This document shows, one piece after another, positions 5,657 to 54,770 of a stretch of DNA of 64,000 nucleotides. Both the position numbers and the translations under genes were made by a program. The stretch comes from Onthophagus taurus (taxonomy: Eukaryota > Arthropoda > Insecta > Coleoptera > Scarabaeidae). The stretch covers positions 3,231,501 through 3,295,500 of the forward strand of contig NC_091971.1 in assembly GCF_036711975.1 (NCBI RefSeq). The letters run 5' to 3'. Below the pieces are notes generated by a model. That model worked only from the letters and a program-made list of their open reading frames with translations, had not been told where the DNA came from and did not search any database. The number at the start of each line of letters is the position of its first letter. Position 1 is the first letter of the stretch.

Positions 5657-7245
5657 TCTGGTTCGTAACGAACTAGGAGTTATTAGGTTGCCGATGAGCC
5701 AGACCAGACATGGAGGAATTTTTCTTCGTTGTCTAACGATTAACAAAAAATAAACAAATAAAAATAAAATTGAGGTGTTCAAAAAATCGAATTCGAATCC
5801 AAGCAGATTCAGTCTAAAATGATGGTGTAACGCAGAGATCGTGTGAGTAATAGCCTGATTGAAACAAATTTATGGATGGATTCTTTTCCGAAAAGTAGCA
5901 AATTTGCATAAAGTTCGGACCTTGGTTTAATTCGCAACTCTAAATGACTAATGGTCTTGTTGGTTCGGTTATTTTGTGGTTTGCCGAAAATAAAAACACA
6001 TAAATCTGTTGACTATAAAATCGGTTTGTTTCTGTGACGGCAGGAAATTACAACATAACTTTCTCAACTCCCACGGTTAATTAAAATCCATTAGAAGGTG
6101 TAGTGGGGTATAGTTTCTATTTCATTGAAAAATCTTGCAAGTGTGTACAGAATGCAGCATCATTTTTTAAACATTAATATATTATCTCAAAAAGTTAAAG
6201 ATATTTTTGAAAATTGTTTTTTTTTATTAAAAAGCTCACAGTTTTCGAAGAAGTTGTAGATCACATTGATATAGAAGTGGATGACTTTGGTATTACCAAA
6301 AATGAAAACTTTTCCATCAAAGATTAAGCTAAATTGAGGACCTTTTTAGATTTGAATTGTTGATTTTTTTGTTGGTAAATTCTGAAATCCTGTTGCTTCC
6401 TGTTCTTAAATTCTTGGATGTAGTAGAAAACTAAATGGGACACCATCTTATGCTGATAATGAAGCGATGGCAACATCTAAGGAGTTACCTTCTTGATTGG
6501 GATCAATTACTTAATTTGGCACAATTGACAAAAATTGGGAAAAAAGGTAGCAAATGAGTTAGGTTGGGTTAGTTTTCTTCATCGTCGACATCAACAGTTG
6601 CTCAACTCTAATAATGGCTGAGTTGGTTATTGTAGCACATCTTCCTTTACATGCATTGCAGCGTAAGTTGATAAGATGTTTTTGAAAATTGTTTTTTTTT
6701 CATTAAAAAGCTCACAGTTTTCGAAGAAGTTGTAGATCACATTGATATAGAAGTGGAAGACTTTGGTATTACCAAGAATGAAGACTTTTTCATCAAAGAT
6801 TAAGCTAAATTGAGGACGTTTTTAGATTTGTATTGTTGATTTTGATGTTGGTAAATTCTGAAATCCCGTTGCTTCCAGTTCTTAAATCCTTGGATGTAGT
6901 AGAAACTCTAAATGGGACACCATCTTATCCTGATAATCAAGCGATGGCATCATTTAAGGAGTTACCTTTTTGATTGGGATCAATTACTTGATTTGGCATA
7001 ATTGACAAAAATTGGGAAAAAAATTTAGCAAATGAGTTAGGTTGGGTTAGTTTTCTTCATTGCCGACATCAACAGTTGCTCAACACTAATAATGGCTAAG
7101 TTGGTTATTGTAGCACATCTTCCTTTACATGCATTGCAGCGTAAGTTGATAAGATATTTTTGAAAATTGTTTTTTTTCATTAAAAAGCTCACAGTTTTCG
7201 AAGATGTTGTAAATCACATTGATATAAAAGTGCAAAACTTTGGTA

Positions 7246-8538
7246 CAGTAAAGACCGGTTATAACGAGTATGCTTTATAACGAGCACCTGCTCTATAACG
7301 AGCAAGCTTCCAAGTCCCGTGAAAAATCCTATCCTTACAATGTAAAAAATCTCGGTTATAACGCGTGCTCGGTTATAACGAGAGTTCGGTTATAACGAGA
7401 GCTCGGTTGTAGTTTTGCGTGTTTTGTACCGTCTATAACGAGCGAATGACGTAAAAATCTGGTGACGTCGTGACGCGCCATTTAGGCACCATGTACAGGC
7501 AGCATCGGCAGTTCAGTTTATCGCTAGATTTACGTGAACTTGTATCTATACGTCGTTACAAAAATCCTCATATTAACAACTTAGAATGTATTGAACTTGC
7601 GTACTTTCCGCCAAATTCAACTTCCGTCTTACAACCGATGGACCAAGGCATAATTAAATCAATGAAAACGTTTTACCGACAAAAGTTATTGTTCAAGTTA
7701 GTAGAAGCTATGGATCCGAATGAAAAATTAAAAATCGATATTTTAGATGTAATAATAATGCTAAACAGCGCATGGATAAATGTTAAAAAAGAAACAATAA
7801 TGAATTGCTTTCGTCATGCATTCGGCAATCTTGCAGAGAATTTTAGCGAGGAAGATGAAATTCCTTTAGCTCAATTAATTACGTGTATCTCTGTGGAAGA
7901 AAATCTTTCTAGTTGGGCAGAGAAAAACGGTTTGGAAATAGACAGTATCGATTTAAATTTATTTGCCACTATCGATGACGATGTTACTACTGGTTCCATT
8001 CTATCTGACACTGAAATAATGTCTAACGTGTTGAATAAAGATAATGAATCTGACGGTGAATCAGATGAAGAGGTAGAACGAAACATATCAAAAAATGAAT
8101 TTTTAGATAAATAAACAGAAAAACATCCGAGAATATTTCAATAAAAATTAATTTTAGATGTATAATAGTATAGATGTTTAGTTAATTAGTTTTAGTCTAT
8201 TAGGTAGTTGTATCTGTCTTAAAGAATAAAGTTATGAAAAATTACAAAAACATGATAATGTATTTTTTTGTTTTTACCTTTTCAATCGTATACTTTTAAA
8301 GCAAACAAAATTTCTCATAGTGATTAATTTCTGATAGTAAATAAACAAAAATTTCATTGCGAAAGTGCAAAAACAAAAAGACTTTTTTAATTCGTTTTTA
8401 AAATTGCTGGTTACTACTTTTTGCACAAGTATTAAAATTTATGTTACATATTACGACAACCTTGGTTATAACGAGGTACCGTCTATAGCGAGCAATTTTT
8501 TCGGTCCCTTGACTGCTCGTTATAACCGGTCTTCACTG
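7246..8538 (+). mobile_element. pogo/Tigger-type DNA transposon, internally deleted
   Basis: The terminal inverted repeats are CAGTAAAGACCGGTTATAAC (from 7246) and the inverse of CAGTGAAGACCGGTTATAAC (ending 8538). The left flank is TA (7244-7245); the right flank is TT (8539-8540), a TA duplication with one mutated base, because uninterrupted repeat copies read GGTATTACC where this locus reads GGTA...TTTTACC. Many subterminal copies of CGGTTATAACGAG lie at both ends, probably transposase-binding sites. The single frame (7470-8114) covers only the C-terminal part of a pogo/Tigger DDE transposase, so the copy cannot encode a full enzyme. Confidence 0.85.
7470..8114 (+). pseudogene. pogo/Tigger (DDE_1, jerky-like) transposase, C-terminal remnant
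   Basis: About 214 codons remain. The region with NNLECIELAYFPPNSTSVLQ followed by PMDQGIIKSMKTFYR matches the conserved C-terminal end of DDE_1 catalytic domains; the Asp of QPMDQG lies near the expected third acidic residue. The N-terminal CENP-B-like helix-turn-helix and the first two catalytic Asp are absent: the frame starts from a GTG right after the 5' subterminal repeats. The tail is acidic (DGESDEEVE), as is common for this family. The enzyme is therefore inactive; the element would need a transposase supplied elsewhere. Family assignment is firm, exact clade uncertain. Confidence 0.8.
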
Positions 8539-15229: not shown

Positions 15230-16892
15230 CCCTTTGTGTCCCAAGAAGTCAAACATTTTGAAACTTTGTGACAGAATTAAAACGCTATTAAAATACACTC
15301 AGTAAAGGCCTTTGGAATAAAATTTTAGCAAAATATGTAATCCCCCTATTTTCGCATAGTCTAAGTGTCAAAAAAGATGATAATTCAAAAATTCTTGGAA
15401 AGCGTGTTTATTGAAATTAAAAAATAAAACTTATTTTAAATTGAAGCTTAAAGCTTTCTGTTTAAAGCGATGTATAACAATCGATGGGTTGGATTAGAAA
15501 AATATTGAGAAAAAGAGTATTGAGTTAAAAGTAACATTTTCGTATAACCTAAAAGTGTCAAAAAAGATGCTAATTTAAAAATTCCTGGAAGCCGTATTTA
15601 TTGAAATTAAAGAATGAGACTTATTCTAAATTAAAGCTCAAAGCTTTCTTTTTAAAATGATGTATAATAATTGTTGGGTTGGATTGGAAAAATATTGACA
15701 AAAAACATGTTGATACAAAACTTACATTTTCGTATAACCTAAGAGTGCCAAAAAAGATGCTAATTTAAAAATTCCTGGAAGTCGTATTTATTGAAATTAA
15801 GGAATGAAACTTATTCTATATTAAAGCTCAAAGCTTTCTCTTTAAAATGATGTATAATAATTGTTGGGTTGGATTGGAAAAATATAGAGAAAAAAAATGT
15901 TGAAATAAAACTTACATTTTCGTATAACCTAAAAGTGTCAAAAAAGATGCTAATTTAAAAATTCCTGAAAGCTGTATTTATTGAAATTAAGGAATGAAAC
16001 TTATTTTAAATTAAAGCTCAAAGCTTTCTCTTTAAAATGATGTATAATAATTGTTGGGTTGGATTGGAAAAATATGGAGAAAAAAATTTTTGAAACAAAA
16101 CTTACATTTTCGTATAACCTAAAAGTGTCAAAAAAGATGCTAATTTAAAAATTCCTGGAAGTCGTATTTATTGAAATTAAGGAATGAAACTTATTTTAAA
16201 TTAAAGCTCAAAGCTTTCTCTTTAAAATGATGAATAATAATTGTTGGGTTGGATTGGAAAAATATGGAGAAAAAAAATTTTGAAACAAAACTTACATTTT
16301 CGTATAACCTAAAAGTGTCAAAAAAGATGCTAATTTAAAAATTCCTGGAAGCCGTATTTATTGAAATTAAGGAATGAAACTTATTTTAAATTAAAGCTCA
16401 AAGCTTTCTCTTTAAAATGATGTATAATAATTGTTGGGTTGGATTGGAAAAATATTAAGAAAAAAAATGTTGAAACAACACTTACATTTAATAGAGTCAA
16501 AAAAGATGCTAATTTAAAAATTCTTAGAAACCATGTTTATTGAAATTAAGGAATGAGACTTATTTTAAATTTAAGCTCAATGTTTTCTTTTTAAAATGAT
16601 CTGTAATAATCACACCTAATAACCATTTATTAAAGAAATACCTTCTTGCACAACAAAATTCAACAGCACCACTTTTCACAAAACTTCTAACCTCACATCT
16701 GGATGAATAAGTTTAAAGTGTACCTAAAAATCCTACAGTGCGGATTGCGACGTTTTTTATACAGATTATTTCTCGTATACACTTGTATAATAGAAAGTAC
16801 AGACAGCGCTAAATGCGCCGAATAGCTAACTACAGTTTAAAATGAGTGTTTAAAATTACCGATACTTTAAAGTACCGTCGGGACACAAAGGG
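15230..16892. mobile_element. piggyBac-type MITE with TTAA duplication and internal minisatellite
   Basis: A perfect 13-bp terminal inverted repeat, CCCTTTGTGTCCC at 15230-15242 and GGGACACAAAGGG at 16880-16892, is flanked on both sides by TTAA (15226-15229 and 16893-16896). TTAA duplication with short C-rich TIRs is the signature of the piggyBac superfamily. There is no transposase frame. Most of the interior is a ~187-bp minisatellite, with only about 110 bp of other sequence at the left and about 300 bp at the right. Confidence 0.85.
15352..16620. repeat. 187-bp tandem repeat (about seven copies) inside the MITE
   Basis: Each unit runs TCAAAAAAGATGCTAATTTA, then a block ending GTATTTATTGAAATTAAGG, then AAGCTCAAAGCTTTCT, then GTTGGGTTGGATTGG and ACATTTTCGTATAACC. 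Units begin near 15367, 15556, 15745, 15935, 16121, 16316 and 16495. The outer copies are more diverged than the central four, a pattern expected for homogenisation by unequal exchange. Each copy includes two to three TTGGG/TTGGA pentamers. Confidence 0.85.
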
Positions 16893-27248: not shown

Positions 27249-30200
27249 TTATTTTTTAACATTAGTTTGAGTATCAGCATTATAATGTTTAATAAATCGA
27301 GCTGAAGGATCTGAAACTTCAATCCATCTGGGCATCCAAAAGAACGGAATAAATTTCTCCGCTAATTTCGGAAAACTTTTCTCAAAAACTTCTCGATAAT
27401 ATAAAGCCTCTTTAGTTTTTGGTGTACAATGTGAATATTTTTTCGATACTTCTTCCGCATTGAATTCCCCAACCATTCGTTTATCAACAATTTCTTGTAA
27501 GATTTGAAACAAAGTTTTAGTTCTAGATGTAACTCCATCACTGTGCATGAATTAAAATATAAGTTAAATTAAAATTTGGTATTAATAAAGTTAAGATTAA
27601 CATTACCTAAATGCTTCTTTATGTCTCCAAAGAACATGTTTTGGTAATAACTCAGTTGAGTCAAAAGCAGATCTAATTAAAAACTTTTCGACCCCATCTC
27701 TTGGTCTGATCAACTCTTTAGGTAAATTGAGATAATAATGGACAAATTGTTGGTCTAAAAATGGAACTCTCAACTCCAAACTATGTCCCGCCATAGTCCT
27801 ATCAGCTCTTAATCCATCAAAAAGATAAATTTCGTTCAAAAGACGTTTACTATCTTCTAAAGCTGCTTTATCTGATGGGGCGTCTCTAAAATAAATATAT
27901 CCTTGGGCCACTTCATCAGCTCCTTCGCCACTAAATACAACAGTGGTGTCTGTATTTTCTTTGATGTATTTCGCGATCAAATACATCGGTATTGAAGCTC
28001 TGATTGTTGTGATATCTGGTGTTTCTAAAGTATAAATAACTTCGTCTAGAACTTTTGCAACATCTTCTTCTGTAAAAATTATTTCATGATGCTCAGTTCC
28101 TATGTGTTCAGCAACTTGGCGAGCTGCTAAAATATCGGGGCTATCTCCCATCCCTATAGAAAAAGATTGAACTTTGTATGGAATGTTTTCTTCTTTAGCT
28201 AATTTTACTAATAAAGATGCAACTAAAGATGAATCTAATCCGCCCGATAAAAGACAACCAATTCTTCTATCAGACATAAGACGCTTTTTAACTCCCATTG
28301 TAAAAATCTTTCTTATATTCTCCAATACATCACTCGAAGATAATTCGTTATATGGCACAAACGGTTTAAAAGCTGGTTTATTCCCTGCTTTGTGAAAAAC
28401 ACCTTTATTAAGCAACTTCACTTTCCCATCATCAAGAATACTGTATTCTTCGAACGTTCCCGGTTCGAAAGGTTCAACGATTCTTCCTTCTCCATTTAAT
28501 TGATCACTAATCGGAATTAATCCTTTCGCCTCGGAACAAATTCCAAGAATTCCGCTTTCGGTGGTTAATTTAAACAACGGTCTAACTCCATAAGGATCTC
28601 TAGCAAGACATAATTTTCGATTTTCTATATCAACTATACAAAATGCAAATACTCCGTCGAGGTTCTTAACGCAACCTTCAGCTCCGAATTTTTTGTACAT
28701 ATGCAAAATACACTCAACGTCACTGAAAGTTTCGTAATTGAACTGAAATTCTTCTTTCAGCTAGAAATATAATAACGAGTTATATTAACCTTTCAGTACA
28801 CGCGTACGGACTGTCAGTCCGCAAAATTTAAACTTTTAATTTGACAGTTACGCCATCTATTGTTAGGTAGGCAAGTCTCTTTTTAAATTGTTTATATTTC
28901 CCCTGACGAGCTTCTAGCTGCATGCAAATAAAAATATTTGATGCGCAATAGCGTGTGCATTTGATAGTAATAAATAGTAAATAAACGGTTAAATCTGTTA
29001 TTTTACCATAAGTAGTTAGTAATAGTGCTAATTGTGGAGTATTGTCTGCCTAAAACAGGTAAATAAAAGTACGATTTAATTAAATTGTTTCCTCGAATGT
29101 GACGTTTAATTTTCAGAATGTGTTCTGATGAAAATGAACAATTGCAACTAGAAACGTTTTTAGAAAATGTTACATTAGCTGATAAAACAATTGAACCAGA
29201 GTATGAGGACGACAAAGACAATGATGAAGTAGATCATTTGGAAGATCGAACGGACTGTTCAGACAGTGAACAAGACATCTCAGATACTGAGGAGCATGTG
29301 TATAAGTCGCCGACTTCAGACGTTTCCTTTTATTTATGTAAAGACGGATTTACAAAATGGAAAAAAAACTTACCACCGAAACATGAAAGAACAATATCTG
29401 AAAACTTAGTCAAACATTTTCCTAGCCCTACAACCGCCACTAAAAATCTAAAAATTGAAATAGATATTTGGAGATATTTTTTCAATGAAGGTATGATGAA
29501 GATAATTGTTGATTGCACAAATCAATACATAGGTCGTACCAAATCAAATTTTGCGCGTGAAAGGGATGCTGACTATACAAATATTTATGAAATTGAGGCG
29601 TTGTTAGGCTTGATATACATGGCTGGAGTTTTGAAAGGAAGTAGGTTGAATGCTAGAGAATTATTCAGCACTCAGGGATACGGAATGGAAATATTTCGCC
29701 TGACAATGTCGATAAATAGGTTTTTGTTTCTTTTGCGTACTCTCCGCTTCGACAATACTGAAACACGTGAGCAACGAAAAGAAATTGATAGATTAGCACC
29801 AATTCGAGTTATTTTTGACAATTTTATCGTAAACTGTAGAAGTGCTTACAGCCCTTTTCATTATGTAACCATAGATGAAATGTTGGAAGGGTTTCGAGGA
29901 CGCCGTGCGTTCAAATAGTATATACCTAGTAAGCCAAATAAGTATGGCATCAAAATTTACGCATTAGTGGACGCTAAATGCTATTTTACATGCAATTTAG
30001 AAGTGTACGTTGGTAAGCAACCAAATGGACCTTATGCTGTTAACAACTCTGCTAGCGCTGTTGTACAAAGATTGTGCGAACCAATAAAAGAATCTGGTAG
30101 AAATGTTACTACCGATAATTGGTTCACTAGTTTAGAATTATTGGAGGCATTAAATCAAAATAAACTCACGTTGTTGGCAACAATACGTAAAAATAGGAAA

Positions 30201-32392
30201 GGGTTGCCAAAAGAATTTACCCAACCACCGAAATCTAGACCTGTAATGTCCAGACTGTTCGGATTTCGCGAAAATGCTACTTTAGTATCATACAAACCAA
30301 AAAAAAATAAAAATGTTTTACTAATTTCAAGTGGACATCATGACGACAGCATTGCAGAAAAATCTCATAAACCAAATATGATCCTCGATTATAATAACAC
30401 TAAAGGCGGTGTTGATACTGTCCATAAATTGTGCGCATCTTACAATTGTGCAAGAAATACACGAAAATTGCCAATGGTGGTTTTTTATGCAACATTAAAT
30501 ATTGCTGGAATTAATAGTATGGTTATCTATAAATTTAACAATCCAACAGTAACCCAACCGAGAAGAAAATTTCTACAACATTTATCAATGGCGCTAATTG
30601 ATGGTCATCTTCGACAGCGAGCTCAGCTGCATTGTCATCCGAAGCAAATGTCATCCAGAATTAGAGAAATTGTAGGATATGAGGAGCCATTACAAGGAGC
30701 TGCACCACCACCGAACGACGAAGATATTCCAAAGCGAGGTCGTTGTGCATATTGCGACAAAAGAAAAAACCGCCCAACTAGATATCACTGTAAGAATTGC
30801 AAAACATTTATGTGCTTGGCTCATTGCACGGTTGTTTGTACAGAATGTTACAATAAAGATGAAATTATGTAAATATATTTTGATTTGAAAGTAAAAAAAG
30901 AATTTTATTTAAATTTTTAATTAGCGCCATCTTCCAACTGGTGGCCACTACTACTATTTGATTGCGGTCTCATAGTCCGGCGCGTGTAGTCTTGTGTATA
31001 TTAAAAGGCGCGTGTACTGGAAGGTTAAAAGAGGTCTATGAGAAGGTTGGTGAGTGAACTCACTCTTTTACAGTTGTAAAGTTCTCCATTACAACATAGT
31101 AAAGATTGTGGGTATTGATGTAATTTCATCGGTTGCATACCGTATGTACAATCTACGATTGTTAATCTATGGAATCCTATGTAACAATTCTAAAAATTAA
31201 AAAATTAAATTAAAAGTGTGTGTTGTAGGTTGGGTTGCCTAAGTTAGAAATAGATATAAATATGTAGAGTATGTGAATATTGATGCAATTTTATGGGTTG
31301 CATGCCATATATACAACCTACGATTAACGTTAATATCTAGATAATTAATCCATAGATAATCTATGGAATTCTATGTAACAATTAATTCTAAAAATTAAAT
31401 TAAAAGTGTGTGTTGTTGGTTGGGTTGCCTAAGTTAGAAATTGATATAAATATATAGATTATGTGGATATTGATGTAATTTCATGGGTTATATGCCATAT
31501 GTACAATCTACGATTGTTAATTTATGGAATCCTATGTAACAATTCTAAAAATTAAAAAATTAAATTAAAATTGTGTGTTGTAGGTTGGGTTGCCTAAGTT
31601 AGAAATAGATATAAATATGTAGATTATGTGAATATTGATGTAATTTTATGGGTTGCATGCCATATGTACAATCTACATATTAATAATCTAGTCTGATTGA
31701 TAATCTATGGAATTCTATGTAACAATTCTAAAAATTAAAGTAAAAGTGTGTGTTGTAGGTTGGGTTGCCTAAGTTAGAAATAGATATAAATATGTAGATT
31801 ATGTGAATATTGATGTAATTTCATGGTTTGAATGCCATAAGTACAATCTACGATTGTTAATCTATGGAATTCTATGTAACAATTCTAAAAATTAAAAAAT
31901 TAAATTAAAAGTGTGTGTTGGGTTGCCTATGTTAGAAATAGAGTAATATTAATTATTAATAGAATAAGTTAGAATATAAAAATATAGATTAAGACATACT
32001 TGTAGAAATGTGAGTGTGACCAGAGTTTTAAATATAAAAATAGAACAGTAAATAAATATAATACAGTGTGTAAATATGAATTTTAGCAGGAAGTGCATTA
32101 GGTTTATCAAGTTGTTTTAAATAAAAATTATCATGTTTTGTATTTTTTTTGTGATCATGTTTGGATGAAGTACAAAGAGTATTAGATAACATTTTAATAA
32201 TTTTTCCGTTCGTTATTTTATGATTTACAAATTTAATTTAAAGTTATTCATTTAAATGATTCCTACCTTCAAGTTATCATCATATTCAATTCTCCAAGCA
32301 TCTGGACCTCGATGTTTAATTTTTGGAAAAGAAGTTCCACAATGATTTAAAGCTGAATCACAAACTCCAAATAAAGCCCAAATACCACACAT
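27249..32392 (-). CDS. AsnS: Asparagine synthetase (glutamine-hydrolysing), four coding exons
   Basis: Makes asparagine from aspartate, ATP and glutamine in the cytosol. Coding exons in order are 32267-32392, 31064-31189, 27607-28760 and 27249-27540; all junctions are GT-AG and in frame, giving about 566 residues, close to the ~561 of animal enzymes. Exon 1 starts MCGIWALFG, so the catalytic Cys follows the initiator Met. Exon 2 carries GFHRL, YGMQP and NGELYN of the class-II glutaminase domain. Exon 3 carries the end of that domain (NLDGVFAF, ARDPYGVRPLF) and the ATP-pyrophosphatase loop LLSGGLDSS. Exon 4 has SDGVTS and the C-terminal tail. Intron 1 holds four decayed copies of exon 2's 5' part; intron 2 holds a piggyBac element. 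The frame is intact, so the gene is probably functional. Confidence 0.93.
28789..31024 (+). mobile_element. piggyBac-like transposon in asparagine synthetase intron 2
   Basis: The terminal inverted repeats CCTTTCAGTACACGCG (from 28789) and the inverse of CCTTCCAGTACACGCG (ending 31024) differ at one base and are flanked by TTAA on both sides (28785-28788 and 31025-31028). At 2.2 kb it is full length for the family and carries one transposase frame (29118-30872) with a single premature stop. It lies antisense to asparagine synthetase, 24 bp upstream of exon 3 and 35 bp downstream of exon 2. Confidence 0.93.
29118..30872 (+). pseudogene. piggyBac-like transposase with one in-frame TAG
   Basis: A 584-codon frame interrupted only by TAG at 29916-29918 (codon 267); reading continues in the same frame on both sides. 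The acidic N-terminus precedes the DDE_Tnp_1_7 domain. Catalytic Asp candidates are D253 (TIDEMLEGFRGR), D333 (TTDNWFTS) and D433 (NTKGGVD). The Asp common three residues after the last one (GVDTLD in relatives) is His here. The C-terminal Cys-rich domain (CAYCDKRKNRP, then CKNCKTFMC and CTVVCTEC) is intact. The enzyme excises at and integrates into TTAA. One nonsense change plus near-perfect TIRs implies a young copy, disabled unless the stop is read through or is a sequencing error. Confidence 0.9.
31109..31945 (-). repeat. Five-copy tandem array derived from asparagine synthetase exon 2 and its upstream intron
   Basis: Unit starts, taken at the TATTGATG block, are 31113, 31278, 31468, 31633 and 31808, giving 165-190 bp per unit. 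The first unit contains the 5' two thirds of the true coding exon 2 plus its acceptor; the other four are copies of that segment. In the gene's sense strand each copy keeps the acceptor (TTTTTAG followed by AATTGTTACATAG; AG at 31190-31191, 31388-31389, 31545-31546, 31728-31729 and 31885-31886). Copy 3 has a stop where the exon reads GMQ; copies 2 and 4 have insertions with stops; copy 5 is still open through this region. None has the exon's 3' part or donor. Confidence 0.9.
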
Positions 32393-32640: not shown

Positions 32641-33550
32641 TGCACGTTGGTTTACAAAGTAATTGGATATGATGCAACACTTGGCACGAATTACTTCTAT
32701 GTAGTAAAATGCTTATGTGTATTTCAACCATTAAGATAACATCCAAATTATTAAGATTGTTTTAAAACAATTTTTTTTATTGAATTAATCTTGTTCACTT
32801 TTTCCACGACTATTTAAACCATTTCTGGTAATGTAACGTGCAAGAATGTTTAGTTGATAACAAATACAATAAGGTATTAAAACTTTACTGTTTATGAACT
32901 GATAAAGCACGTCAGAACTGCTTTTCCCAACTTTATTGCAAATTATAGTTTCCAATTCGCATTGAATTTTCAGCACTTAAATGGGTTGCCTATATGAAAG
33001 TTGAAAGAAACGTCACTCTGACGTAAATATTAAAAAATGTATAATTTTGATGATTAAAAAGTCAAAACTTGTTTAATGACAGAGATGGAATCATATTTTT
33101 TGGAGTTATACTAAAAAGGGATGCAGAATTCAATAAATAGTTCCCTCTGTGTGAACAAAAAAACATATATTTGTTTTATTCAAGAATAATATAACACCAA
33201 AACTTTTCTTACAAATAAATTAAGTATCAGGTAATCTATTTGGTAATCAATCTTAGGACGTTTCAATAACAACAATGGGACAATTCCACTCCTGTATGAT
33301 AAATTTTAAACCTTGCAGAGAATATCAAGAAATAAGTTGGAAAACTTATATGTATATAAGTCAGAACATTATATCTTCTAAATTGGGTTACCTTTTAAAA
33401 CCTTCATCTACAATAATTAATAGCTTATTTTTATTTGCAATGGTAACAACAGGTTAAGCGATTTAGTACCTTTCTTTTAATTATTTGATGATGTTCTAAT
33501 TGTTCTAGTTACTTTTTGGGTTGATGAAATTAATTAAATGTTATATTTGA
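32641..33550. other. Non-coding stretch upstream of asparagine synthetase
   Basis: AT-rich, with no supported gene; probably includes the asparagine synthetase upstream region. No recognisable regulatory element could be defended. Confidence 0.4.
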
Positions 33551-34266
33551 TTTACAACAACTCATTTCTGCACCACATCTAACCTAAAATATATTTCCTA
33601 ACCTTATTCATCTATTAACACTGGAAACAAATTAACCAACCTCATAGATTCTTCTTTTCTTTCTTATTTCTTGTTCTTCACCTTTGAATTTATTTCTTTT
33701 TTCTACTTTAACTTCTTTCTTCATTTTAATTTACAATAATCCATCTCTACATCACATCTAACCTAAAATATATTTCCTAACCTTATTCATCTACTAAACT
33801 TAAAACAAATTAGCCAACCTCATAGATATTTCTTTTCTTTCTTATTTCTTGTTCTTCACCTTTGAATTGATTTCTCTTTTTCCTACTTTAACTTCTTTCT
33901 TCATTTTAATTTACAATAATCCATCTCTACATCACATCTAACCTAAAATATATTTCCTAACCTTATTCATCCACTAAATTTAAAACAAATTAGCCAACCT
34001 CATAGATATTTCTTTTCTTTCTTATTTCTTGTTCTTCACCTTTGAATTTATTTCTTTTTTCCTACTTTAACTTCTTTCTTCATTTTAATTTACAATAATC
34101 CATCTCTGCACCACATCTAACCTAAAATATATTTCCTAACCTTATTCATCAACTAAAACTTGAAACAAATTAACCAACCTCATAGATTCTTCTTTTCTTT
34201 CTTATTTCTTGTTCTTCACTTTTGAATTTCTTTCTTTTTTCTTACATTAACTTCTTTCTTCATTTT
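33551..34266. repeat. 180-bp tandem repeat, four copies
   Basis: Units beginning near 33551, 33731, 33911 and 34090 share CACATCTAACCTAAAATATA, CAACCTCATAGAT and the pyrimidine-rich TTTCTTATTTCTTGTTCTTC. Period 179-180 bp; the two central copies are most alike. No reading frame. Confidence 0.85.
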
Positions 34267-36027: not shown

Positions 36028-37420
36028 CAGTAAAATCTCAAAATAACAGATCTTGTTAGAAACCACTTCGGATATAACGGACCAAATATTTATAAGTCAT
36101 ACTGTTAATATTATCTCCTCAATTTGCTCTATTCCATGTTCATAGATAAACTCGGAGTTTTCCCAGAGTTGTCTATATGATGTATAAATCACGGACGGTA
36201 GTTCTAGTTTTAATTATTATTCAGCGCAAGATTGTAGCATATTTTTGTTGAACTAAAACTAGAACTAACACTAGAACTAGAACTAGAATCATTTAGGTTT
36301 AACCGCACGTCTTTCAAAACGGCTAAACCCGTATGATTCTAGTTCTAGGTATAGTGTTAGGTCTAGTTCAACAAAAATATGCTGCAATCTAGCGCTGAAT
36401 AGTAATTAAAACTAGAACAGAATTCTAAACAGAGTTCTAGTGACAGTGCTAGTGTAAAACTAGAGCTAACACTAGACCTAAAATTAGAATCATTCGGGTT
36501 TAGCCGCACGTCTCTCAAGACGGCTAAACCTGAATGATTCTAGTTCTAGGTCTAGTGTTAGTTCTTGTGACAGTGTTAGTATTAAACTAGAACTAACACT
36601 AGACCTGGAAATAGAATCATTCGGGTTTAGCCGCACGTCTCTCAAGACGGCTAAATCCGAATGATTCTAGTTATAGGTATAGTGTTAGTTATAGTTTTAC
36701 ACTAGCACTGTTCCTAGAGCAAACACTAGACCTAGAACTAGAATCATTCGGGTTTAGCCGCACGTCTCTCAAGACGGCTAAACCTGAATGATTCTAGTTC
36801 TAGGTCTAGTGTTTGCTCTAGGAACAGTGCTAGTGTAAAACTATAACTAACACTATACCTATAACTAGAATCATTCGGATTTAGGTCTAGTGTTAGCTCT
36901 AATTTTACACTAGCACTGTCACTAGAACTCTGTTCAGAATTCTGTTCTAGTTTTAATTACTATTCAGCGCTAGATTGCAGCATATTTTTGTTGAACTAGA
37001 CCTAACACTATACCTAGAACTAGAATCATACGGGTTTAGCCGCACGTCTCTCAAGACGGCTAAACCTGAATGATTCTAGTTCTAGGTCTAGTGTTTGCTC
37101 TAGGAACAGTGCTAGTGTAAAACTATAACTAACACTATACCCATAACTAGAATCATTCGGATTTAGCCGTCTTGAGAGACGTGCGGCTAAACCCGAATGA
37201 TTCTATTTCCAGGTCTAGTGTTAGTTCTAGTTTAATACTAACACTGTCATAAGAACTAACACTAGACCTAGAACTAGAATCATTCTGGTTTAGCCGTCTT
37301 GAAAGACATGTGGCTAAACCCGAATGATTCTAGTTCTAAGTCTAGTGTTAATTCAAGTTTTAATTGTTATTTAGCGCTAAATTGCTGGAAATTGTTACAG
37401 AAGATAAAATTTGAAAGATT
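36028..37420. mobile_element. Foldback element built of TTTAGCCG hairpins, left TIR of pogo/Tigger style
   Basis: CAGTAAAATCTCAAAATAAC after TA at 36026 resembles the TIR of the element at 46576; no matching right end was found, so the right border is approximate. The body (36190-37370) alternates the hairpin GGTTTAGCCG-14 nt-CGGCTAAACC with flanking TCTAGTTCTAGGTCTAGTGT runs in both orientations. A block with TTCAGCGC and CATATTTTTGTTGAAC appears forward near 36220 and 36965 and inverted near 36370. Eight or so hairpins are present. No coding capacity. Confidence 0.7.
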
Positions 37421-40265: not shown

Positions 40266-40375
40266 AATGAAGCAATTTGCTTTTGGTAGAAACATTTAAA
40301 ATTAAGAGCTTGTATTTATTGTAGAGTAGATTGTAATAAAAATTTCCACAAAAAATAATTAAAATGTCATTTGGA

Positions 40376-40720
40376 TTGCCTAACCATTAGGTATTAAAAT
40401 TTATTTAACATTTTGAAGGAAAGAAAAGTCAACTTGGGTTTTTACTGTTCATTTTATTTTAAAATAGATGGTGCTTGATGATCAAAAACATTATTCACCA
40501 ATAAAAAATATTTAAAATGTTATTTCGATTATTGGGAGTAATTTGGGTTGCCTAATTATTAGGAGTTAAAATTTATTTAATATTTTGAGGGAAAAAGAAA
40601 TCATCTTGGCTTTTATGCTAGGTTTCATCTATCTTAATATAGATGGTTCTTGGTAATCGAAAATATAATTCATCAATAAATATTTCAAATAGTTTTTCAA
40701 TAGTCAATAATTTTTATTTT
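40376..40720. repeat. 171-bp direct repeat, two copies
   Basis: TTGCCTAACCATTAGG (40378) and TTGCCTAATTATTAGG (40549) start two diverged tandem copies that also share AAAATTTATTTAA and the ATAGATGG block. Confidence 0.6.
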
Positions 40721-43260: not shown

Positions 43261-43303
43261 TATGTCTGCAAGCAGATTTTTACACAACCTCGTAAAAAAG
43301 AGG

Positions 43304-43334
43304 GTTGGGTTGGATTGAGTTGGGTTGGGTTGGG
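43304..43334 (+). repeat. (TTGGG)n tract 2
   Basis: Six TTGGG-type pentamers between a type B retrotransposon end and the next truncated reverse-transcriptase piece. Confidence 0.85.
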
Positions 43335-44880: not shown

Positions 44881-44883
44881 GGG

Positions 44884-44953
44884 TTGGGTTGGGTTGGGTT
44901 TGGTTGGGTTGGCTTGGGTTGAGCTGGATTGAGTTGAGTTGAGTTGGGATGGG
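44884..44953 (+). repeat. (TTGGG)n tract 3
   Basis: About 14 pentamers, mostly TTGGG with TTGAG, TTGGA, CTGGA and ATGGG variants that accumulate toward the right, directly abutting a type B retrotransposon 3' end. Confidence 0.9.
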
Positions 44954-46575: not shown

Positions 46576-47806
46576 TAGTAAAACCTCGATATTACAGATT
46601 AATTCATTCTTGTATTAGTTAGTTATAACAATTTAGCACTGAATAATAAATAAAAGTATAGCTAACACTAGTTAGTTCTACTTTTATATTAGCACTGTCA
46701 CTAGAACTAACACTAGATAGAACTAGAAATATTTGGGTTTAGCCGCACGTCTCTCAAAACGGCTAAACTCGAGTGATTCTAGTTTTAAGTCTTGTGTTAG
46801 TTCTAGTGATAGTGCTAGTATTAAGCTAGAACTAACACTAGACCTAGAACTAGAATCATTCGGGTTTAGCCATATGTCTTTCAAGACGGCTAAACCAGAA
46901 TGATTCTAGTTCTAGGTCTAGTGTTAGTTCTTGTGACAGTGTTAGTATTAAACTAGAACTAACACTAGACCTGGAAATAGAATCATTCGGGTTTAGCCGC
47001 ACGTCTCTCAAGACGGCTAAACCCAAATGATTCTACTTCTAGGTCTAGTGTTAGTTCTAATGCTAGTTCTTGTTTTAGCTGTTATTCAGCGTTAGATTGT
47101 TGTACATATATTTTTTATTGAAGTAAAACTAGAACTAACACTAGACCTAGAACTAGAAAGTTTCGGGATTAGCCGCACGTCTCTCAAAACGGCTCAACCC
47201 GAATGATTCTAGTTTTAGGTCTTGTGTTAGTTCTAGTGATAGTGCTAGTATTAAGCTAGAACTAACACTAGACCTAGAACTAGAATCATTTGGGTTTAGC
47301 CGCACGTCTTTCAAGACGGCTAAACCCAAATGATTCTACTTCTAGGTCTAGTGTTAGTTCTAATGCTAGTTCTAGTTTTAGCTGTTATTCAGCGTTAGAT
47401 TGTTGTACATATATTTTTTATTGAAGTAAAACTAGAACTAACACTAGACCTAGAACTAGAATGTTTCTAGTTCTAGGTTTAGTGTTAGTTCTAGTTTTAA
47501 TTATGATTCAGTGATAGGTTGTTGTATATTTTTATTGAACTAACATTAAACCTAGAACTAGAAACAATCGGGTTTAGCCGTCTTAAGAGACGTACGGCTA
47601 ACCCGAATGTTTCTAGTTCTAGGTCCAGTCTTACTTCAAGTGACTGTGTTAGTATAAAACTAGAACTAATACTAGACCTAGAACTAGAAACATTCGGGTT
47701 TTAGTTTTATACTAACACTAAACCCAGAACCAGAAACATTTGGATTTAGCCATACATCTGAAATCATACTTAAAAACATTTAGTCCGTTATAACGAGGTT
47801 TTACTG
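46576..47806. mobile_element. Foldback MITE with pogo/Tigger-style TIRs and TTTAGCCG hairpin array
   Basis: The left end TAGTAAAACCTCGATATTAC (after TA at 46574-46575) and the right end, inverse of CAGTAAAACCTCGTTATAAC (ending 47806, before TA at 47807-47808), form diverged TIRs with TA duplication. The interior is an array of the hairpin GGTTTAGCCG-14 nt-CGGCTAAACC and TCTAGTTCTAGGTCTAGTGT-type runs, with longer internal duplications (46810-47060 resembles 47220-47370). No coding capacity. The TIR is related to that of the pogo/Tigger element at 7246. Confidence 0.8.
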
Positions 47807-49652: not shown

Positions 49653-52650
49653 AGATACAGTGTGTTAATTAATTGTACCCGACGTCATCATTGCAAGTAT
49701 ACAACCAACATCGCGATTTGCGCATTACAATACCAATACTGTGATATTGGTTGCATACTTGCAATGATGACGTGGGGTACGATAATTAATTAACACACTG
49801 TATCTGTTCTCCAATAGCGGAGGAGTCGTCTATGAGCCATTTAAAGTATTAGCGAGATATTTTTGAAGATTTTTGCAGCTATCTTTAATAATGATAATGA
49901 TTCCATTAAGATAGACACGATATATAGAATAGATATTGAGTAGCGCAGCTAATCATTGCAATAGAACGCATCATTACATCGCATAAATGAAACTTAACTA
50001 AGATAAATTATTTCAAAAGATGGGAATGAATAAAAAAATGTTGATACAAATGTTTTATAATTGAATTATGCAACCAATATCACAGTATTGGTATTATAAT
50101 GCGCAAATCGCGATATTGGTTGCATACTTGCAATGATGACCTCGGGTACGATAATTAATTAACACACTCTATCTGTTCTCCAATAGCGGAGGAGTCGTCT
50201 ATGAGCCATTTAAAGTATTAGCGAGATATTTTTGAAGATTTTTGCAGCTATTTTTAATAATGATAATGATTCCATTAAGATATACACGATATATAGAACA
50301 TATATTGAGTAGCGCAGCTAATCATTGCAATAGAACGCATCATTACATCGCATAAATGAAACTTAACTAAGATAAATTATTTCAAAAGATGGGAATGAAT
50401 AAAAAAATATTGATACAAATGTTTTATAATTGAATTATGCAACCAATATCACAGTATTGGTATTATAATGCGCAAATCGCGATATTGGTTGCATACTTGC
50501 AATGATGACCTCGGGTACGATAATTAATTAACACACTGTATCTGTTCGCCAATAGCGGAGGAGTCGTCTATGAGCCATTTAAAGTATTAGCGAGATATTT
50601 TTGAAGATTTTTGTAGCTATCTTTATTAATGATAATGATTTCATTAAGATAGACACGATATATAGAATAGATATTGAGTAGCGCAGCTAATCATTACAAT
50701 AGAACGCATCATTACATCGCATAAATGAAACTTTACTAAGATAAATTATTTCAAAAGATGGGAATGAATAAAAAAATATTGATACAAATGTTTTATAATT
50801 GAATTATGCAACCAATATCACAGTATTGGTCTTATAATGCGCAAATCGCGATATTGGTTGCATACTTGCAATGACGACCTCGGGTACGATAATTAATTAA
50901 CACACTGTATCTGTTCTCCAATAGCGGAGGAGTCGTCTATGAGCCATTTAAAGTATTAGCGAGATATTTTTGAAGATTTTTGCAGCTATCTTTAATAATG
51001 ATAATGATTCCATTAAGATATACACGATATATAGAACATATATTGAGTAGCGCAGCTAATCATTGCAATAGAACGTATCATTACATCGCATAAATGAAAC
51101 TTAACTAAGATAAATTATTTCAAAAGATGGGAATGAATAAAAAAATATTGATACAAATGTTTTATAATTGAATTATGCAACCAATATCACAGTATTGGTA
51201 TTATAATGCGCAAATCGCGATATTGGTTGCATACTTGCAATGATGACCTCGGGTACGATAATTAATTAACACACTGTATCTGTTCTCCAATAGCGGAGGA
51301 GTCGTCTATGAGCCATTTAAAGTATTAGCGAGATATTTTTGAAGATTTTTGCAGCTATCCTTAATAATGGTAATGATTCCATTAAGATAGACACGATATA
51401 TAGAATATATATTGAGTAGCGCAGCTAATCATTACAATAGAACGCATCATTACATCGCATAAATGAAACTTAACTAAGATAAATTATTTCAAAAGATGGG
51501 AATGAATAAAAAAATATTGATACAAATGTTTTATAATTGAATTATGCAACCAATATCACAGTATTGGTATTATAATGCGCAAATCGCGATATTGGTTGCA
51601 TACTTGCAATGATGAGCTCGGGTACGATAATTAATTAACACACTGTATCTGTTCTCTAATAGCGGAGGAGTCGTCTATGAGCCATTTAAAGTATTAGCGA
51701 GATATTTTTGAAGATTTTTGCAGCTATTTTTAATAATGATAATGATTCCATTAAGATAGACACGATATATAGAATAGATATTGAGTAGCGCAGCTAATTA
51801 TTGCAATAGAACGCATCATTACATCGCATAAATGAAACTTAACTAAGTTAAATTATTTCAAAAGATGGGAATGAATAAAAAAATATTGATACAAATGTTT
51901 TATAATTGAATTATGCAACCAATATCACAGTATTGGTATTATAATGCGCAAATCGCGATATTGGTTGCATACTTGCAATGATGACCTCGGGTACGATAAT
52001 TAATTAACACACTGTATCTGTTCTCTAATATCAGAGGAGTCGTCTATGAGCCATTTAAAGTATTAGCGAGATATTTTTGAAGATTTTTGCAGCTATCTTT
52101 AATAATGATAATGATTCCATTAAGATAGACACGATATATAGAATAGATATTGAGTAGCGCAGCTAATCATTGCAATAGAACGCATCATTACATCGCATAA
52201 ATGAAACTTAACTAAGATAAATTATTTCAAAAGATGGGAATGAATAAAAAAATATTGATACAAATGTTTTATAATTGAATTATGCAACCAATATCACAGT
52301 ATTGGTATTATAATGCGCAAATCGCGATATTGGTTGCATACTTGCAATGATGACCTCGGGTACGATAATTAATTAACACACTGTATCTGTTCTCCAATAG
52401 CGGAGGAGTCGTTTATGAGCCATTTAAAGTATTAGCGAGATATTTTTGAAGATTTTTGCAGTTATCTTTAATAATGATAATGATTCCATTAAGATAGACA
52501 CGATATATAGAATATATATTGATTAGCGCAGCTAATCATTGCAATAGAACGCATCATTACATCGCATAAATGAAACTTAACTAAGATAAATTATTTCAAA
52601 AGATGGGAATGAATAAAAAAATATTGATACAAATGTTTTATAATTGAATT
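49653..52650. repeat. 369-bp satellite, eight copies, headed by a palindrome
   Basis: The block TATCTGTTC recurs at 49801, 50170, 50539, 50908, 51277, 51646, 52015 and 52384, always 369 bp apart, and copies are nearly identical. Each unit includes GCAACCAATATC and its inverse GATATTGGTTGC about 30 bp apart, plus TAATTAATTAACACACTGTA. The left edge (49653-49805) is a ~60-bp-arm palindrome: the unit's start also appears inverted. No reading frame. Confidence 0.95.
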
Positions 52651-54770
52651 AATTTGTATATTTTTAAATTAAGACAAACGTTTAAATTGTAGTATTAAAT
52701 TTCATTCCTCGTTGTTTAGGATTTCGAATTCGAATTAAATTCTGATTCCAACATAGTTGAATTAACTTTCTAAACAACCCCCAGCAGCCGTCGCCCTGGT
52801 GTTAGGTTTCGCTGTGTTGGGGGGAAACTTTACAGACGAGATCTATTGAGAGAGAGACGAACATTTATAAACGTCACCAACGTGAAACCCTGAACAAAAG
52901 GGATATTGGGGTAACACCCCGGAAACGTTAAACCATGCTTCTTCACACCATGTTTTTTTTTGTTCTCTTCTCCTAAAAGTTAATCGGTTAATATTAAATT
53001 TAATTAAAAATGTAACTTGGTACGTTTTTAATTAAAATTTGTTTTTAAGGAAACGTTGTTTTTGTTTTGAATTGTGAAAAATTAAAAGATTAATACGGAG
53101 TAGTATCGGTTCAATGGCACTAAATGTTGCAGGCAGCATTCCACGTCCCCCTGTGTGTTTCGTTCTTTTCGCTCTTTCGATTTTTACTTTGGGCGATCGC
53201 CGGTCTTCGACTGTTGCTAAGGTACACAGTCGTTAAAAGCGGTCCCTTTTATTTCGTTTTACACCGTGAGAAGTTTCGTGGGATTTACGCGGTATGCCGT
53301 TGCTCACACAGAATGAGAAGAAAATATACGTAAATTTAAAAAAGATTTTTGGCCAAATTTATACATTATGATTATTATTTATATTTAAAAAAAACATTGA
53401 ACTCACGTCAATCATAAATAAAAAATATCATGTTCTTCGTTGTCATCACGTATTTCTATCACATCCTGTATGGAAGTCATGAACGAAGTTGACAGTTTCC
53501 AGTAAATTGACCCAACCATAAGTTGATAAATGGCTCCTTTCAGAAACAGGAAGTTACTAGATATTGTAAAAGCACACTAATGTTTTCAAACTCTACCTAT
53601 TCGTAATAAATTATTTATGAGATTTTTTAAAATAACTTAATTTATAAAAATTATTGATTTTTTTTAATAATTTAAACTTGTTATCAACACTAATTAACGC
53701 AAGAAAGTAAAGTGAACTCCAATTATCTACCATAAAATATTTTAATTCGTTTCAATTAATTAAAACTTGTCATCATTTTCATGTTTCGTTAAGAAGAGGC
53801 AAAAAAATGTAATTTGTTGCATATTAATAATTATAAAACTGGTTCGTAATTATCTCATACCTTCCTATACATATACCATAATTTTAGAATGCTACATCAT
53901 CAGTCTTAAAAAAAAAATCTGAAGACCAGTTTTATTATCAGTGTCGTTTCTCCACCACTAATTTTAATATTCCTACAATAATTATCTTGTGGGCGTCGAT
54001 AATCCCCTTATCAGATAATTGATAGCTTACACCATAAAGAAGTCGATTAACTACGATTTCCTCAATCAAAAAAATATTTGAGCAATAAAATCATTTAGTA
54101 ATTTATTACATAGAAAATACCTTTAAAGTTGTCGAATTGTTAATTTTTCGATTAGACTTTGTAATCGAAACGTCTTGAATTATCGAAGAATGTTGAAGGC
54201 AATGAATTTTAGTTTTCAAGACAAGTTAAAAAGGATACTGAAAGGTTTATAGCTTCGTTAAGGTATACGTGGTGTATACTAATCGAATCTTCTTCAATAT
54301 AACTATTTTTATACAAGAAAATAATATAAAAAAATAAAATATAAACGATTAGTAATCAATTTCGTAATAAATAAATATTTTTTGTGGTCAGATTCTGAAG
54401 AAATTTAGAACCACAAAAGATATTTAGATTGGGATATAATTAAATCGTGACATCAAAAGTGAATTTTTTTCTTGCAAAGTGATTATTTTATTTTTTAAAT
54501 CGTAAATCATATTTAAAACAGCTTGGAGTAATTTCTATGTAGTTAACATACATACTGAACATTCTACTCATTGCATAGTCATGAAGCGATGGAACATTTA
54601 GTGTCCGAATGAAATAAATTTATGGCTCTTAATTGTCTATAAAATAACTAAAAAATCAAGAGACGATTTATGATGAGTGAGAATTTGTAATACAAAGTTA
54701 AGAACATTTTCGCAACGATTTTGCATTGCTACATTCTTGCTATTACTTAATTATATATTTGCTTCAAGTA
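52651..54770. other. AT-rich non-coding stretch
   Basis: No gene, RNA or array supported. A GC-richer patch near 52780-52920 and another near 53120-53290 have only short frames. Confidence 0.45.

Follow-up and report, generated by a model that had tools for sequence, protein, structure and literature searches.

A mirage-like array of truncated exon 2 copies in intron 1 of the asparagine synthetase gene of Onthophagus taurus

The asparagine synthetase gene and its surroundings

The stretch of DNA analysed here, hereafter the window, comprises 64,000 nucleotides of Onthophagus taurus (NC_091971.1, positions 3,231,501 to 3,295,500; contig C6 of a 291-Mb assembly in 33 contigs), and its minus strand carries the asparagine synthetase (ASNS) gene. 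All positions given below are those of the window unless another contig is named, and ASNS and the copies derived from it are read on the minus strand. The coding part of exon 1 (MCGIWALFG...DDNLK; 32267-32392) aligns to human ASNS (6gq3) and is followed by an intron 1 of 1077 nt (31190-32266), the donor GT of which starts at 32266. Exon 2 (NCYIGFHRLTIVDCTYGMQPMKLHQYPQSLLCCNGELYNCKR) measures 126 nt, occupies 31064-31189 and ends at a GTGAGT donor at 31063. Exon 3 (LKEEFQ...KEAF; 27603-28760) was taken from a listed open reading frame, the end of which sets its lower boundary and takes in a few intron bases, and a last exon lies beyond it. Joined into one conceptual protein, these parts match human ASNS over residues 1-557 (E 1e-190), and because the protein is full length with exon 2 joined in, the copy at 31064-31189 is the real exon. 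A search of the beetle's own genome with PF00733 gave three matches, two of them in the ASNS gene and the third a weak one, above the family cut-off, on contig C5; a second ASNS gene that could compensate for losses at this locus therefore seems to be absent. An insect cuticle protein domain (PF00379) is also encoded in the window.

Intron 2, which measures 2303 nt, owes its length to a mobile element. The element at 28785-31028 is flanked on either side by TTAA and has inverted ends that match, with a transposase domain (PF13843) that is split over two open reading frames antisense to ASNS; from the TTAA and the PF13843 domain we presume it to be a piggyBac-like element. When it is removed in silico and the flanks are joined, an intron of 63 nt remains. 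Elsewhere in the window, a tandem duplication of 476 bp (6198-7245) is closely followed by a DDE_1 (PF03184) transposase fragment at 7470-8114. This duplication is one of seven long-period arrays that accompany the ASNS array described below, the others being found at 15363-16610, 33546-34266, 36433-37358, 40369-40698, 46700-47467 and 49743-52651. The ASNS array and these seven, all arrays with a period of at least 50, cover 13.7% of the window; the corresponding cover is 4.7% in four arbitrary stretches from elsewhere (40 kb) and about 1.7% (674 bp) in four stretches (39.6 kb) around copies of the dispersed repeat introduced below. Short degenerate runs of TTGGG occur internally at 43302-43334 and 44881-44953. 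Among seven readable contig ends that were sampled, four carry TTGGG/CCCAA arrays and none carries TTAGG or TTAGGG; (TTGGG)n has been reported from beetles, a damselfly, a bee (mixed with TTAGG) and a lacewing (PMC8233369, PMC12564400).

Five copies of one intron-exon boundary

Between exons 1 and 2, intron 1 contains four extra tandem copies of the intron 1/exon 2 boundary. Each of these decoys consists of the first 83 of the 126 nt of exon 2 and of 74-82 nt of intronic sequence that includes a TTTTTAG acceptor, and the coordinates give the same 74-82 nt as the spacing from an exon fragment to the next acceptor. Outward from the real unit (E2; 31107-31252), the decoys are c2 (31272-31442), c3 (31462-31607), c4 (31627-31782) and the outermost, c5 (31802-31940); the real exon starts at 31189 and the decoy exon parts at 31387, 31544, 31727 and 31884, respectively. 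Aligned in pairs, the five units are 85-95% identical over 131-152 bases, which is well above chance. TRF reported a 165-bp array at 31113-31851 (score 875) and again at 31357-31920 (score 814), and a separate repeat finder gave five copies with spacings of 190, 165, 175 and 165. When exon 2 was used as a query against the beetle's own genome, in a search that scored the best candidates only, all four of the matches among those listed fell inside the array; three decoys matched at nucleotides 1-83, and c2 had no separate entry.

The decoy exon fragments are in different states of decay. In c5 (31802-31884, with the acceptor AG ending at 31885) all 83 nt are open, and a stop is met in the repeat sequence beyond. 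The fragment of c4 (31627-31727) contains an insertion and a stop, that of c3 (31462-31544), which is nearest to the real exon in sequence, has a Q codon changed to TAA, and that of c2 (31272-31387) has two insertions, one of 4 nt (AATT, after the acceptor) and one of 29 nt. In this respect the original prediction was accurate: it had described tandem copies of the 5' part of exon 2, each with a TTTTTAG acceptor, had placed the acceptors at 31190, 31388, 31545, 31728 and 31885, and had noted the stop in c3, the insertions in c2 and c4 and the open exon part of c5, all of which we find. Its exon 1 donor, given as 32267, is one base off, as this is the last exon base.

In the intronic half of the units, for which the original prediction had spoken of about 80 bp of upstream intron in each copy, most of the sequence is the 51-nt end of a dispersed repeat of about 180 bp. 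This repeat end directly follows the exon fragment of c5 (31751-31801), c4 (31576-31626), c3 (31411-31461) and c2 (31221-31271), with 94% identity to a copy on contig C3 in the first two cases and 92% in the other two, and it joins the exon fragment at the identical base in all four junctions. A unit thus begins with the 51-nt repeat end, continues with at most 31 nt of original intron, including TTTTTAG and the pyrimidine tract, and closes with 83 nt of exon. Upstream of the array, a longer piece of the same repeat is preserved at 31965-32039 on the minus strand (90% over 81 columns to C3:26324448-26324528).

The repeat can be traced through the genome. A unit used as a query had four short hits on contigs other than C6, and a 181-bp query taken from one of these places gave at least 22 matches, namely 16 long copies elsewhere (the place of the query included), a 51-bp piece on contig C10 and five in the ASNS locus. 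Alignment of the 16 long copies with their flanks delimits a dispersed repeat of about 180 bp that ends in ...CTAACTTAGGCAACCCAACCTACA. Eleven of the 16 are clustered at 29.9-30.55 Mb of contig C2, and the others lie on contigs C2, C3, C5 and C11; within the cluster, the copies have two types of flank and occur in both orientations, as if they were inside larger duplicated blocks.

Formation and decay of the array

The junctions suggest how such an array may have been seeded. As the sequence shows, intron 1 contained a copy of the dispersed repeat that ended some 31 nt before the acceptor of exon 2. A break or slippage may then have fused the first 83 nt of exon 2 to the last 51 nt of the repeat, as the common junction implies, and the product would have been a duplication of the repeat end, the pyrimidine tract, the acceptor and 83 nt of exon. 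Given that this duplication was in tandem, the exon would have remained complete, with its donor, in the 3' copy only. Compared by eye, the breakpoints read CACA-ATCT in the exon and TTAATCT in the repeat, and AATCT is common to both and to the product CACATAATCT, with an overlap that is inexact in that two bases remain over. Microhomology-assisted tandem duplication would be the simplest reading of these junctions. The origin that had been predicted, a tandem duplication across the intron 1/exon 2 boundary of which the most 3' copy is the sole working exon, is well supported.

Two other ways of arriving at such an arrangement have to be weighed against a single seeding event. Since every decoy exon fragment runs into the same repeat end, the decoys might have been made by separate insertions of this short repeat, each with a long target-site duplication. 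However, all four spacers share both their first repeat base and their point of junction with the exon, which would be unexpected if the insertions were independent, and to our knowledge target duplications of more than 100 nt are not expected. With all four junctions at the same base, we rejected this reading as highly improbable. The array might also be an artefact of assembly or of haplotype merging; tandem arrays are prone to misassembly, and one haplotype of an amphioxus globin gene with similar repeats was thought by the authors to be aberrantly assembled in the draft genome (PMC3087553). Yet artefactual copies should be near-identical, whereas the units found here differ by 5-15% and have distinct, private indels, as a duplicated read stack would not, and the assembly as a whole resolves 291 Mb into 33 contigs. 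An artefact is barely credible on this evidence, although the exact copy number of the unit in the assembly may be wrong.

From the first tandem duplication, unequal exchange would have added further units. For the reconstruction of this growth and for the counts of changes given below, the misaligned acceptor columns of c2 and the columns gapped in the real exon (insertions) were removed. In the remaining alignment, with 23 variable columns, the tree ((E2,c3),(c2,c4)),c5 requires 24 steps, as compared with 26-28 for the other 14 trees. By this margin of two steps, it is weakly supported that the last event was the duplication of a two-unit block, in which c4-c3 would have been copied from c2-E2. 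The insertions of c2 and c4 lie at the same place, but 12 of their 18 aligned inserted columns differ; because they are only partly alike, they may not go back to one insertion, and the two-step margin is what carries the tree.

After their formation the outer copies appear to have decayed like neutral DNA, with selection holding the real exon. All four of the changes private to E2 are synonymous, whereas the decoys have four synonymous changes among 15 (one-sided exact p 0.018; each distinct state in the decoys was counted once), in a test that is limited by small numbers and by a polarisation drawn from five related copies. For the 83 nt concerned, 44 of 249 random single changes would be synonymous, or 26 of 83 if transitions alone are considered. 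With these proportions, the decoys resemble DNA that is free to vary, and the real exon appears to be held by purifying selection. Sorted by the part of the unit, the decoys have 15 changes in the 83 positions of the exon part, four in the 37 of the repeat part and one in the 26 of the acceptor and pyrimidine tract; the scarcity of changes in the last class could be a hint of constraint, for which these numbers are too few. Among the synonymous changes found in the real exon alone, GGC to GGT at 31140 creates a donor-like ACG/GTATGC inside exon 2.

Splice choice and the likeness to amphioxus mirages

The five units present the splicing machinery with rival acceptors on one transcript. Those of E2, c3 and c5 are identical 23-mers, and those of c2 and c4 differ further upstream, in the pyrimidine tract. 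On the donor side, a crude scan by position weights scored the real donor at 7.0, a site in c2 at 31321 at 3.7 and the remaining decoy GTs below 0. The prediction that the copies lack donors is right as far as strong ones in the decoys are concerned, but has to be qualified for the weak donor-like site in c2. Another donor-like sequence, CAA/GTATGT at 31999 (score 6.4), lies in the piece of dispersed repeat upstream of the array. Such scores are only a rough guide, as the site at 31140 inside exon 2 (7.3) outranks the real donor.

Splicing presumably picks the last acceptor, the sole one that has a strong donor at an ordinary exon distance (126 nt), with long introns on both sides. According to PMC9225289, the rules of which derive from organisms other than the one studied here, preference goes to the splice sites that are nearest across the exon when introns are long, and nearest across the intron when introns are short. 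Exon 2 is flanked by introns of 1077 and 2303 nt, and 382 nt separate even the first decoy acceptor from the donor of exon 1, so that the real acceptor should be favoured. For competing 3' sites between long introns, the available text of the same source describes the upstream preference as significantly reduced, which is less than to state that it is reversed. As cited there, Reed and Maniatis likewise had duplicated copies of a splice site compete on one transcript, and in that case the upstream 3' site was chosen; the ASNS locus differs from theirs in being natural, five-fold and set in a long-intron context.

These considerations bear on whether the decoys do anything. In one alternative, the decoy acceptors would be used to a meaningful degree and would lower or regulate ASNS output by way of transcripts with early stops. 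Indeed, every unit retains its TTTTTAG acceptor, three of them in an identical 23-nt context, and whichever of the four decoys supplies the acceptor, read-through to the real donor meets in-frame stops, so that use of a decoy would be unproductive. An exon enlarged from the c2 acceptor to the real donor would measure 324 nt, a workable size, proximity rules for rival 3' sites can favour the upstream one (PMC9225289), and the authors of PMC3087553 themselves note that repeated signals could act as cryptic sites and could give aberrant transcripts. Against this stand the apparently neutral decay of the decoy exon parts, the persistence of the array for long enough to reach 5-15% divergence with seemingly no second ASNS gene, and the reports of comparable arrays in amphioxus Adh3, globin and TnC genes without disturbance of splicing (PMC3087553, PMC3902484). 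As far as the sequence can tell, regulated dead-end splicing at ASNS is unlikely, and the original prediction's suggestion that the array could lower correct splicing or create such transcripts finds no support in it. It is very unlikely that the decoys form a selected ladder of acceptors, in which the acceptors are constrained while the exon parts decay, and copy number and splicing conditions tune ASNS output; if this were true, the fraction of transcripts that reach the real exon 2 would depend on both. Mutually exclusive or alternative exons were also considered and rejected. Such exons call for an acceptor, an open frame and a donor in each copy, whereas the decoys break off 43 nt before the exon end and have no strong donor, and in three of the four the exon part is interrupted by a stop or frameshift. 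We therefore favour, with a probability of about 0.8, a passive minisatellite of the intron-exon boundary that was seeded beside a dispersed repeat and has no function, the absence of function being what we infer from the sequence of one assembly.

Arrays of this anatomy have been described before, and the ASNS array is best read as one of the kind known from amphioxus as 'mirage' repeats. Its tandem units span an exon-intron boundary, a single intact exon stands at the edge of the array while the other copies are truncated at exon nucleotide 83 of 126, and the splice signal is repeated in the units, with a TTTTTAG acceptor in all five. Among the globin mirages of PMC3087553 (BflGb6 and BflGb9), BflGb6 likewise duplicates the 3' end of an intron and the 5' part of exon 2 in tandem, in units of 150-160 bp, with repeated acceptors and with the authentic exon kept. 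Unit identity is 81-100% in the globin mirages and 85-95% in the ASNS array. The globin arrays differ in belonging to a cephalochordate, in having copy numbers of 6 and 3 between haplotypes and in having been studied by RT-PCR, which suggests that they do not interfere with splicing (PMC3087553). A dispersed-repeat half is present in the ASNS units and is not mentioned for the globin mirages in the available part of that source. The mirages of amphioxus Adh3, troponin C and PGBD5 also have duplicated splice sites, in genes other than ASNS and with units of 10-72 bp in Adh3 and of 60 and 108 bp in PGBD5 (PMC3902484, PMC3087553); according to PMC3902484, the Adh and TnC mirages make no aberrant mRNAs, and the same is suggested for PGBD5.

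Outside lancelets, tandem duplications of part of a gene that are linked to intron gain or affect exon-intron structure, like the one in ASNS, are known from potato RdRp (PMC4974935) and sole dmrt1 (PMC7605655), although, judged by brief descriptions, neither seems to form an array of several units with decoy acceptors. Another parallel is offered by minisatellites that stem from transposable elements (PMC9659126), in that short repeats supply the unit sequence and that microhomology and unequal exchange are discussed as steps of growth. In contrast to those minisatellites, which are described as element sequence throughout, half of each ASNS unit is a fragment of a coding exon. We found no mirage array from an insect in a limited search of the open-licence literature; the original prediction's view of the array as unusual may accordingly hold for insects, but the same anatomy has been published for amphioxus genes.

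The ASNS array is thus likely to be a case of a mirage outside the cephalochordates, in a metabolic gene of an insect. Mirages have been regarded as possibly general in cephalochordates and proposed as a source of new introns (PMC3087553); a clear insect case would show that they extend beyond lancelets. The dispersed-repeat half of each unit suggests how mirage arrays can start. Three of the five rival acceptors share the same 23 nt, and the locus therefore also provides a natural test of the choice among equal 3' splice sites.
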